From positions 1,116,001-1,180,000 of the forward strand of contig JABAQM010000001.1 of the NCBI GenBank assembly GCA_019187105.1: a stretch of 64,000 nucleotides of DNA. The letters run 5' to 3'. This DNA comes from Fimbriimonadaceae bacterium. GTDB taxonomy: Bacteria; Armatimonadota; Fimbriimonadia; Fimbriimonadales; Fimbriimonadaceae. Below the pieces are notes generated by a model. It was not told where the DNA came from, searched no databases, and worked only from the letters and a program-made list of their open reading frames with translations. Positions 31,473 to 34,884 of this stretch are shown one piece after another (within the stretch, counting starts at the first letter, position 1; each line of letters opens with the position of its first letter). A program made the position numbers and the translations under genes.

Positions 31473-31501
31473 TTGACAGAACTTGTGCACACTACTATGA
31501 T
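31473..31501 (+). promoter_or_regulatory. Strong promoter of the TGT-like operon
   Basis: Consensus TTGACA (31473-31478), a 17-nt spacer and TATGAT (31496-31501) form the best sigma-70-type promoter I see in the window. Transcription should start near 31508, about 34 nt before the TTG start codon. Confidence 0.75.
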
Positions 31502-31515
31502 GAGGAATCTTCTAG

Positions 31516-31545
31516 ATGTCTGAACTGCGCAGGAGCACCACTTGA
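31516..31545 (+). CDS. Possible 9-residue leader peptide
   Basis: Just after the promoter, ATG at 31516 opens a nine-codon frame (MSELRRSTT) whose TGA overlaps the TTG start of the next gene (TTGA). The AGGAG used by the TTG start lies inside this mini-ORF. It may couple translation of the TTG gene to its own, or be chance. Confidence 0.25.
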   Translation: MSELRRSTT

Positions 31546-32936
31546 AGTTCGTTGCCAATCTTCGCCAAGAGACGATTGATGCTTTCGTGGCTCAACCGAA
31601 GTATTTGGCTGCTTACCTTCTCTCTTCGCATCGAATCACACCTGCTACTCTCGAGGCTGCAGCCCATGTTCGGGCACTGGGCATCTCTCTTTTTGCCGAC
31701 AATGGTACCAAGCCATTAATAGAACAAACAATCGGTGAGTTCGAGCAACGAGCGCGTGTGCTGAGCTCCGAACTGCGCTCACTCAGGAGGCGACTCGGCC
31801 GCGTGCCACGTGGTCGCGACGTTCCACGCGAGATTCGAGCGAAGTCCAAACAGTTGGCGACCGACGTCGTTAATCGAGCGACAAAAGTCTCTGAGGCAAT
31901 TGACACGACTGACTTGTCCGCCTTGCAGTTGTCGATGCGACCAACCGACCTCATCGCGCAGGAAGATTTCGCAATCGGTTGCCTGATTGGTCTCGGACTT
32001 GAAAGAGAGATGACCGGCTGGTCTGTCCAAGACGTTGATAGGCGAAACCTGCGGTCACTGACACTCTGGCGACGCGTTGCCGATGATCCTCGCTGTGCTG
32101 ACATCAATGTATTTGCCGTGTTGAGTGCAGTTGACTACAATACGGCACGTTCTGCGGGTCGTCTCGCCTCGTTAGCGGGTGTGAAGAACGTAGCGGTAGG
32201 ACTCGCCGGGATCATGTTGGATTCCTCTGCGACGGACTTCATGGTGTTTGACACTGCCTGTTTTAAACTGGCAAAGCCTGTTGCGCGAAGATACGTCCGG
32301 TTAGCTCAGGTTCTCCGAGGTTTCGCAAAGGGATTCGCGGACACGGGTGTTAAATTGGAGAGGCTCCATTGCTTGGGGCTTGGTGCGCCCGCCCTCTTCC
32401 CAATTGTTGCGAAAGCGCTCGGTGAAACAACTCGTATTACAGCAGACGCAACTAGCCCCATCCATGACGCTGTGCGGGATAGAGTCCTCTATGATCCCGA
32501 AAAGGACGGCGTTAGAGAATCAACGTGGGAGATCGTGGGCCACATCGTGAAAGGAGGTAGCTGGGCCTTTTTGAGCCCATTTACCCGCAACTTTCGTACT
32601 GAGTTTGGGCACCATGTTGGAAAGTCCAGACTAGCCTGGAAAGCTCTTGGGCGGCCACCTATTTCGCAATCCTTCCTTGAGGTTCCAAGTGAGGTAACGG
32701 AGGCGTTACCGCTGTTTTCAGACGCGGAATCTGCCATCCAAGTCATCGCTAGCAAGACGCGGATCGCTCACAATCACTGGGTGCTTGGCCAGATTGCAGC
32801 TTCACTTCAGGACAAGAAAGGCCGACATCGGCTCGCTTTGGCGGCAATTGATCGGTGGCTCTCGGAGGAACAGACTGTAACCTCACGTTCTCTCTCGGTT
32901 GCTCGGCGGATCCTTTTTGAATTGACGACATTGTGA
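31542..32936 (+). CDS. TGT/DpdA-like barrel protein, candidate base-exchange enzyme
   Basis: The start is TTG at 31542 with AGGAG nine nt upstream. The 464-residue protein follows the motif order of tRNA-guanine transglycosylases: an early AYLLSSHR strand and LFADNGT (Asp53, compare TDSGGF); VFAVLSAVDY and VAVGLAGIM near 189-222 (compare GIVQGG and AIGGL); LHCLGLGAP near 274-282 (compare HLLGIGTP); and ITADATSPI with Asp302 (compare the nucleophile in FDCVLPTR). The Cys-rich zinc site of tRNA enzymes is absent. DpdA enzymes use this fold to insert 7-deazaguanine into DNA. I infer a nucleobase-exchange or glycosylase activity, on nucleic acid of unknown type. Low-GC codon use and flanking repeats suggest transfer. 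Confidence 0.5.
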   Translation: MKFVANLRQETIDAFVAQPKYLAAYLLSSHRITPATLEAAAHVRALGISLFADNGTKPLIEQTIGEFEQRARVLSSELRSLRRRLGRVPRGRDVPREIRAKSKQLATDVVNRATKVSEAIDTTDLSALQLSMRPTDLIAQEDFAIGCLIGLGLEREMTGWSVQDVDRRNLRSLTLWRRVADDPRCADINVFAVLSAVDYNTARSAGRLASLAGVKNVAVGLAGIMLDSSATDFMVFDTACFKLAKPVARRYVRLAQVLRGFAKGFADTGVKLERLHCLGLGAPALFPIVAKALGETTRITADATSPIHDAVRDRVLYDPEKDGVRESTWEIVGHIVKGGSWAFLSPFTRNFRTEFGHHVGKSRLAWKALGRPPISQSFLEVPSEVTEALPLFSDAESAIQVIASKTRIAHNHWVLGQIAASLQDKKGRHRLALAAIDRWLSEEQTVTSRSLSVARRILFELTTL

Positions 32937-33079
32937 TTCAGCCAAAAGCAACGGATCGACAAGATACCTGCTGGCGGCCTGCGGCCCGGGTTGCGATCAC
33001 GCAGGCACCGGGTATTAATGAATTCGCTATGACCTATATGGTATGGTAGAAATCTCGTTCTTGAACGACAGGGGTGCTA

Positions 33080-34546
33080 ATGGCAGAAGTTCCGTTGGAT
33101 TCTCTTATGGCAGGCAATCTTGGCCGCAGCTCTGCCCTCACAAGTGAACTCCCTCATAGTCACTTCAAGTGGATTGCGGCAATTCGGACAGCGGTCATCG
33201 ATGAGCGTTGGAACGACGTTATAACACTTGGATATCAGTGCTTGGGCTGGGGCCATTCCTCGGCGAGGCTCATCGAGCAGGACATTGCAGCCGCGAATTA
33301 TCGAGAACAAGCCACTGGCGCGGTCTTACAGGCAGCCAACCAGGTTCTAACTAATGTATTGAAACACGAGAATCACGCTCAGATCGTGGCTAAGTTGCGT
33401 GAGCACACCCCAGATTCTGCAGACAAGGCTGCTGAACTCTTTGAACGACTTAGCAATAGGAATAATGGAGGAAACGACCCACTGAACCTCGCTTCATCCG
33501 ATTTTTCTTTGAGTAACGGGGTCCTGAATTGGTCTATCGAGAGTACTCTGGCTATTCTCTCAAGGGGTTTGCTCGCCATAGTGCACGGGCATTTTAACCG
33601 CGAATACCGGCGTGCCGTCTCCGATGCAACTCCCCTGCTTGCCGGCGAGATCGATTCATTTATAGAGGAAAACATTACTCGACTGCGAGATGCCCAGTAC
33701 CGTCTCTACGCAGACCTAGGGCTGCACGGCCCTTCCAACACGGCAGTCGAGGCAGCGGCATCGCTCTCTCGATTCGTCGAGGGATTGACGCCATCACTGG
33801 CAATCGTTCAGGCCCAGGCTCGCAACGCTTTGTATATCCTCAACGGCCGGAATGGTAGCACTGGCCTCTTAGAGAAGTTTGGACGCGTGGGGTTGCGCGC
33901 TGGTGTGCTAACGAGGGAAGCGCTCGCTAGTCATGTGGCCGCTTACCGTCTGCAAATCGAGATAATTAGGTCATCGCAATCTAATGCACTTGCGCATCTA
34001 TGGACCGAGTCGCATAAAGTACCTTTTGATGGTTCGCCGCCAAACGGCAAAAACATCTCGTTGGCCAACTTGGCCAACTCCGATGAAGGACAATTGGTCG
34101 AGGTTGAGGGTTTTGTCGACGTACTCCGTGTTGGTCGAACTGCCGATGGGAAGCTCGTTTCGGCGCTTCAGCTTATCGCTCCCTCTGGGCGCGCAAATGC
34201 CAGTTCTGCCGCTGTGTATGTCCACCTACTGCACAGAGGCATCACTCGGAGAAGCTACTGCAAAGTAACCGGAACATATCGCCGGAAATCCAAGCTTCTT
34301 TCGGGGACCGGTGTAATCGAGGTAGCGAACCTTCAACTCGCGGAATTGGGCCAGTCTAGCTGGCGCTATGCCTTCTTGAAGGCTGCAGATGAGTGGTTTC
34401 AGTTCCGGCCGAATGGCCTCCACATGGAGTGGTCTCTTGGCCCACAGCGTGGCCCGCGCGCTCCTGAGGACACAGCCCATGGCGGGGCGGGCGAGCTTAT
34501 CTATCCACCATTCGTCCAAAGTAGAGGAGCAGGGAAACCAAGATGA
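33080..34546 (+). CDS. Uncharacterised helical protein with C-terminal OB-fold-like domain
   Basis: The ATG at 33080 lies 5 nt after AGGGG and is preferred over the GTG at 33074. The 488-residue protein is largely helical to about 320 (SHFKWIAAIRTAVIDERWND, REYRRAVSDATPLLAGEI). Residues about 330-430 show a five-strand pattern: EGQLVEVEGFVDVLRVG, LVSALQLIAPSG, AAVYVHLLH, SYCKVTGTYRRKSKL, TGVIEVANLQL, which resembles a nucleic-acid-binding OB fold. It overlaps the next gene by ATGA and follows the TGT-like gene by 143 bp. It could deliver nucleic acid to the TGT-like enzyme. The family is not recognised. Confidence 0.55.
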   Translation: MAEVPLDSLMAGNLGRSSALTSELPHSHFKWIAAIRTAVIDERWNDVITLGYQCLGWGHSSARLIEQDIAAANYREQATGAVLQAANQVLTNVLKHENHAQIVAKLREHTPDSADKAAELFERLSNRNNGGNDPLNLASSDFSLSNGVLNWSIESTLAILSRGLLAIVHGHFNREYRRAVSDATPLLAGEIDSFIEENITRLRDAQYRLYADLGLHGPSNTAVEAAASLSRFVEGLTPSLAIVQAQARNALYILNGRNGSTGLLEKFGRVGLRAGVLTREALASHVAAYRLQIEIIRSSQSNALAHLWTESHKVPFDGSPPNGKNISLANLANSDEGQLVEVEGFVDVLRVGRTADGKLVSALQLIAPSGRANASSAAVYVHLLHRGITRRSYCKVTGTYRRKSKLLSGTGVIEVANLQLAELGQSSWRYAFLKAADEWFQFRPNGLHMEWSLGPQRGPRAPEDTAHGGAGELIYPPFVQSRGAGKPR

Positions 34547-34884
34547 GTCACGACCCCACCTACAACCCTTGCGAGGACGCCGGCTATGCGTACGCGTCGG
34601 CGAAATCCGCGTACGAAACAAGATTGGACATGTATCTTCAACGCATGGATGAATTGCGTCAAGCGACAGCCAACCTTGTTGATGAGTGCTCGGCACCGCT
34701 TGCAGCAATCGACCAGGAATGCTATGACGCTATCGGTGAGGAACTTGAGGCCATGAGCTCTGCGTACGACGCTAAGGAAGAGCTAGAGGATGCGATTCTT
34801 GAATACCTTTCGTCGCTCCTTGACTTTTACAACTGCATGGTTGAGCATCCAGGTGAAGGGTCAGACGTAGATATAATTCGGTAG
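34543..34884 (+). CDS. Small acidic coiled-coil protein of the TGT-like operon
   Basis: The ATG overlaps the preceding TGA (ATGA). The 113-residue product is strongly acidic and helical, with four cysteines (YNPCEDAG, VDECSAP, IDQECYD, FYNCMVE) and a long heptad region (ETRLDMYLQRMDELRQATAN). It has no TM helix. Its size, charge and coupling to the OB-like gene suggest an accessory subunit or an inhibitor, such as a DNA mimic, but nothing confirms that. No similar family is known to me. Confidence 0.55.
   Translation: MSHDPTYNPCEDAGYAYASAKSAYETRLDMYLQRMDELRQATANLVDECSAPLAAIDQECYDAIGEELEAMSSAYDAKEELEDAILEYLSSLLDFYNCMVEHPGEGSDVDIIR

Follow-up and report, generated by a model that had tools for sequence, protein, structure and literature searches.

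The window analyzed here, a 64,000-nucleotide stretch of DNA from a Fimbriimonadaceae bacterium, carries three neighboring genes, which we refer to as A, B, and C, with the following features:

31473..31501, + strand: sigma-70-type promoter, TTGACA-17-TATGAT, 11/12 matches
31542..32936, + strand: gene A, 464-aa TGT-superfamily (beta/alpha)8 barrel, TTG start
33074..34546, + strand: gene B, helical bundle with C-terminal OB domain, 490 aa, GTG start
34094..34324, + strand: OB-fold core of B, residues 341-417, from the structure model
34543..34884, + strand: gene C, acidic helical protein, 113 aa, Cys at residues 10/49/60/98

The three open reading frames, their coordinates and motifs, the ATGA overlap that couples B to C, and the strong promoter were all confirmed as given in a preliminary description of this DNA when the reading frames and promoter were rechecked. 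The start of gene A is supported by alignment, its homologues opening at the same MxFxANLR; for gene B the likelier start is the ATG at 33080, which has AGGGG upstream. Three promoter-like sites were found compared to 2.3 expected, with the others scoring 9 and the promoter of A standing apart at its higher score. The GC3 of the trio (0.54-0.57) is below the 0.605-0.86 measured for 29 others in the 64-kb window, so that the trio looks like a foreign insert. None of the three genes matched a family in Pfam, NCBIfam, PADLOC, or PHROGs.

TGT-fold enzymes carry out 7-deazaguanine exchange in tRNA and DNA. The preliminary description proposed a fold of this type for A, and structural modeling bears this out. 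An AlphaFold2 model of A built from a 21-row alignment had a pLDDT of 92.2 and a pTM of 0.90, and its best PDB match by Foldseek was DpdA (7ui4, E 9e-6), followed by only TGTs down to E 1e-3, with no unrelated barrel taking the top position. Structural comparison by VIA gave a Z of 25.5 over 307 residues for the archaeosine TGT 1iq8 and of about 22 for bacterial TGT. Note that Cap10 was not among the structural matches listed for the model, an absence that carries no evidential weight. Comparison of the A family with canonical TGTs by hhalign gave an E of 3.6e-4, and homologues of A matched TIGR00449 (4 members, best 7.6e-7) and PF01702 (2 members, best 6.7e-5). The window's A did not reach the curated cut-offs of either family and its relatives were sub-threshold; searching PDB sequences with a profile of A returned coiled-coil chance matches only. 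Its modeled fold and its catalytic residues place A in the TGT superfamily as a divergent member, distinct from PF01702 proper, DpdA, and Cap10.

The positions within A that correspond to functional sites of TGT are as follows:

31698..31700, + strand: Asp53 codon, end of strand beta3, in LFADNGT; aligned to the TGT general acid/base Asp (global hhalign, on TDSG)
31965..31967, + strand: Asp142 codon, end of beta4; in the place of the base-recognition Asp in TGT
32364..32390, + strand: LHCLGLGAP, residues 275-283, beta7; equivalent of TGT YLMGVGxP (hhalign, on YLMGVGTP)
32445..32447, + strand: Asp302 codon, end of beta8, in ITADATSPI; aligned to the TGT nucleophile Asp (hhalign)
32562..32589, + strand: WAFLSPF, where TGT has its zinc cysteines; clade-2 homologues carry CxCxxC at this site, which the window's A has lost
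32769..32780, + strand: HNHW, residues 410-413; equivalent of the TGT LHN zinc-ligand motif, AHN falling on TGT IHN (forced global hhalign)

Asp142 was placed by eye, from strand order and the similarity of SDIxxxxDE to TDLIAQED, in a segment left unaligned by global hhalign. We take the counterparts of Asp53, Asp142, and Asp302 in Z. mobilis TGT to be D102, D156, and D280, respectively. All three were invariant wherever present among 21 A proteins, so that the two Asp earlier described as spaced like the TGT catalytic pair not only align with that pair but are kept in homologues. A potential concern with this analysis is that the invariance of H276, G279, G281, P283, D302, and P306 is partly imposed, because these residues were part of the pattern used to find the homologues; D53, D142, G220, D227, and HNHW lay outside the pattern. 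Asp302 is also kept in L066, a homologue found by profile and thus independent of the pattern, which retains all three pocket Asp. The absence of C-terminal zinc cysteines, also noted earlier, holds for the window's A and its clade (clade 1), which keeps only the HN(HW), but not for distant members of the family, in which the zinc motif CxCxxC...HN is kept. The canonical Tgt of the same genome likewise lacks the CxCxxC cysteines (L049:1498-2595; G000:C1:2022513-2023565), and therefore loss of the zinc site in A is no objection to membership of the TGT superfamily. The canonical Tgt of another genome, G292 (L050), is also without CxCxxC. The base-recognition Gln of TGT is replaced by Ser195 in the window's A, and for this reason the ligand may differ or A may only bind. 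Judged by its residues, the catalytic core of A is intact.

Homologues of A were identified by scanning GTDB species genomes (85,000 genomes, 257 Gb) for a DNA pattern encoding HxLGxGxP, 18 amino acids, and DxxSP, the exact spacing of the two A motifs. The scan returned 24 stretches. Of these, 21 encode A homologues, complete or partial, with 24-60% identity, and the other three (L016, L017, and L022) were rejected as chance matches. Recovery of the A motifs is far beyond chance, since 21 of the 24 stretches are homologues and nearly all of these adjoin B and C. The close clade (clade 1, 52-60% identity) includes Nitrococcus, Marinobacter, Microbulbifer, Modicisalibacter, an alphaproteobacterium, and Thermomicrobiota; distant members (24-36% identity) occur in Micromonospora, Cellulomonas, Nocardioides, and other actinobacteria, in Burkholderiales and Alphaproteobacteria, and in a methanomicrobial archaeon. 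Carriers thus span Pseudomonadota, Actinomycetota, Thermomicrobiota, and one archaeon. A profile search added the still more distant L066. This third-clade protein (L066:8651-10762) is extended at the N-terminus by a helical region with weak similarity to DUF6308. Its locus too is an operon in the order B-C-A, and the C encoded there is a long coiled coil.

The trio is rare. In even samples that each include their own starting genome, it was found in 1 of 395 genomes from actinobacteria and in 2 of 369 from gammaproteobacteria. No relative of A or B was found elsewhere in the class (112 genomes). This absence, the low GC3, and the 60% identity of A to a gammaproteobacterial protein indicate that the trio was horizontally acquired. 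Single-sequence searches of families, PDB, class and phylum genomes, plasmids, phages, and viral contigs yielded no relatives, nor did back-translated patterns from pseudo-alignments recover any; one weak match for A in the phylum (L002) was rejected as low-complexity. The trio was not found in phage collections, plasmid collections, or viral contigs.

The same gene trio was found in other genomes across phyla, B and C adjoining A in nearly all loci, with no other neighbor broadly conserved. Gene order is usually B-C-A, is A-B-C in the window and in Cellulomonas, and is rearranged in a few loci. No separate C was identified in the archaeon, whose B has an extra acidic tail. The structure model of B consists of a helical bundle and an OB domain, in keeping with the helical/OB-like character assigned to it beforehand; the closest matches to the OB domain are the OBs of MCM and RPA and the one that binds the anticodon in AsnRS/AspRS, with modest VIA scores (Z 6-7). 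There are at least two sequence types of B, with the OB domain common to both.

The C family is acidic and helical, with a length of 95-361 aa. The spacing of its cysteines is 39 residues from C1 to C2 and 38 from C3 to C4 in the window, Microbulbifer, Nitrococcus, an alphaproteobacterium, Propionibacteriales, Nocardioides, and Cellulomonas (counted by hand in the last). Modicisalibacter has 37/37, two loci with B type 2 have 45/44, and long forms have about 55/60. Two lineages of C keep C1 and C4 and have lost C2 and C3 together. Because the spacings pair up and C2 and C3 vanish together, we infer that C is an antiparallel hairpin clamped at both ends, the tip of which is hydrophobic and Gly-rich in several lineages. 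The spacing tracks the type of B rather than the clade of A, the Thermomicrobiota locus having a close-clade A, B type 2, and a C1-C2 spacing of 45, which suggests that B and C may interact. In the C proteins examined, the N-terminal Met is usually followed by S/P/A/G, with a Cys at residue 3-10, and the C-terminus has a nearby Cys and usually a His. The predicted hairpin would fit a substrate or effector equally well as a regulator.

Trio loci had no consistent association with known defense genes, and the trio matched no PADLOC-DB model. A KatG-like catalase-peroxidase, recognized by eye, adjoins the trio in Thermomicrobiota and a Burkholderiales genome, at loci with B type 2 (L034:6603-8819, L018:1-768, and L038:1024-3303), an arrangement limited to two phyla. 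A 1435-aa protein with TIR, nSTAND1, and beta-propeller regions lies near the Modicisalibacter trio (L032:2204-6511). Two further observations by eye concern the window itself: a DNA methyltransferase-like ORF (442 aa) beside an 807-aa histidine-kinase-type ATPase-like ORF (window:15366-19851), which is possibly another defense or restriction unit, and a 1130-aa RHS/YD-repeat-like protein upstream of the trio (window:23873-27265).

We also examined the supply of 7-deazaguanine. If A inserted a 7-deazaguanine made by the host, carriers would be expected to have QueC; the source genome does have QueC, 1.7 Mb from the trio, and a canonical Tgt, but this does not extend to several other carriers. 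QueC was not found at 1e-15 in G291, G297, G301, G309, G310, G311, or the metagenome-assembled G292, nor was it found in Modicisalibacter. Canonical Tgt was not found in G291, G295, G297, G301, G303, G310, or G311. Five actinobacterial carriers (G291, G297, G301, G310, and G311) are thus without both; some carriers are draft or metagenome-assembled genomes, and G291, G297, G310, and G311 are isolates. Because several carriers lack QueC and Tgt, the module does not in general require de novo 7-deazaguanine, and insertion of such a base is probably not the general function, with a salvaged base remaining an option.

These data bear on what the module does. One reading is that A inserts host-made preQ0 or another 7-deazaguanine, as in Dpd-like modification of DNA or Q-like modification of RNA. 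DpdA is the top structural match and the source genome has QueC and Tgt, but the five actinobacterial carriers without these genes and Modicisalibacter without QueC argue against it, as do the loci themselves, where no queC or dpd gene adjoins the trio and dpd partner genes were not found. We consider this reading, which the preliminary description had raised, to be quite unlikely. A could instead be a catalytically retired fold that serves only as a binding subunit, like QTRT2 of eukaryotic TGT. Loss of the zinc cysteines in clade 1 and the change of Gln to Ser195 would fit such a role; the invariance of the three pocket Asp over deep divergence, including L066, and the lack of zinc cysteines in the source genome's own canonical Tgt make it very unlikely.

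A further reading is that A modifies or binds C. The precedent comes from type IV CBASS, where the TGT-family enzyme Cap10 binds a partner protein at its N-terminus, which carries a nucleobase modification (PMC11996544). This reading is consistent with the near-constant presence of C alongside A and B and with the N-terminal Cys and C-terminal Cys/His being the most constant features of C. However, no Cap9/QueC-like gene lies beside the trio and none is found in several carrier genomes, the MGG/MGT motif with which Cap9/QatC substrates begin at the N-terminus (PMC13279940) is missing from C, and the OB domain of B points to nucleic acid. Modification of C is therefore possible but doubtful. 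A more speculative scheme, which we consider improbable, has A acting with no need of 7-deazaguanine, expelling a normal base to form a covalent Asp302-nucleotide adduct, and passing this adduct to C, for example to its N-terminal Cys, or to water; if true, the product would be a nucleic acid-protein conjugate in the first case and a programmed abasic site in the second.

The reading we prefer, although we rate its chances as about even, is that the trio is a horizontally moved TGT-superfamily module, probably related to conflict, that performs base exchange or removal or nucleobase-protein chemistry. Within this module the OB domain of B would present nucleic acid, either tRNA anticodon-like or single-stranded. 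Asp302 would attack C1' of the nucleotide and expel the base, and another base, water (giving base removal), or a partner group would then resolve the enzyme-ribosyl intermediate. Host-made 7-deazaguanine would not be used in at least part of the A family. C would pair with B and be the dedicated substrate, regulator, or effector of the module. The options left for TGT-type chemistry are base removal, exchange in which the incoming base is ordinary or salvaged, and Cap10-like nucleobase-protein chemistry. Of the base-exchange or base-removal system originally envisaged, the TGT fold, the Asp pair, the trio, and the OB domain stand, and the insertion of 7-deazaguanine is not supported. The sparse and cross-phylum distribution suggests a role in conflict, either anti-phage or anti-mobile-element; from distribution alone, a defense role for the trio is plausible.

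Comparison with known systems places the trio apart from each. A has in common with DpdA, the DNA preQ0 insertase of Dpd (7ui4), the fold, the two Asp, and a sparse mobile distribution, but it has no detectable sequence family match and part of its family does not depend on preQ0. The partners in the trio are OB and Cys-hairpin proteins rather than Dpd partner genes; dpdB/dpdC and restriction partners were not recurring neighbors in the trio loci compared, and B and C have no PADLOC match. With bacterial and archaeal TGT (PF01702, TIGR00449), A shares the barrel, DxG, HxLGxGxP/D, and HN, and clade 2 also shares CxCxxC; it differs in having a large insertion of helices that follows beta3 (residues 57-130), a Ser in place of Gln, and an accessory operon, in falling below all family cut-offs, and in the lack of zinc cysteines in clade 1. 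Type IV CBASS likewise pairs a TGT-fold protein, Cap10, with a dedicated protein partner, but the trio includes no CD-NTase, Cap9/QueC, or other CBASS gene. The BREX-related capture (BRC) systems have a TGT homologue in a conflict operon (PMC12839542), whereas the trio lacks PglZ, HerA/FtsK, DUF6079, and GNAT. The literature describes TGTs as parts of Dpd, of type IV CBASS, and of BREX-related capture; among these we found no system with the gene set of the trio.

In the trio, a mobile TGT clade found in two domains of life comes with OB and Cys-hairpin partners of its own. That it is carried by actinobacteria without QueC and Tgt implies a substrate or reaction new to the TGT family, and A probably has a chemistry or target not yet known for that family. 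Nucleobase-protein chemistry in CBASS is a recent addition to the roles of this fold, and the range of TGT-fold functions is now directly testable through the trio.
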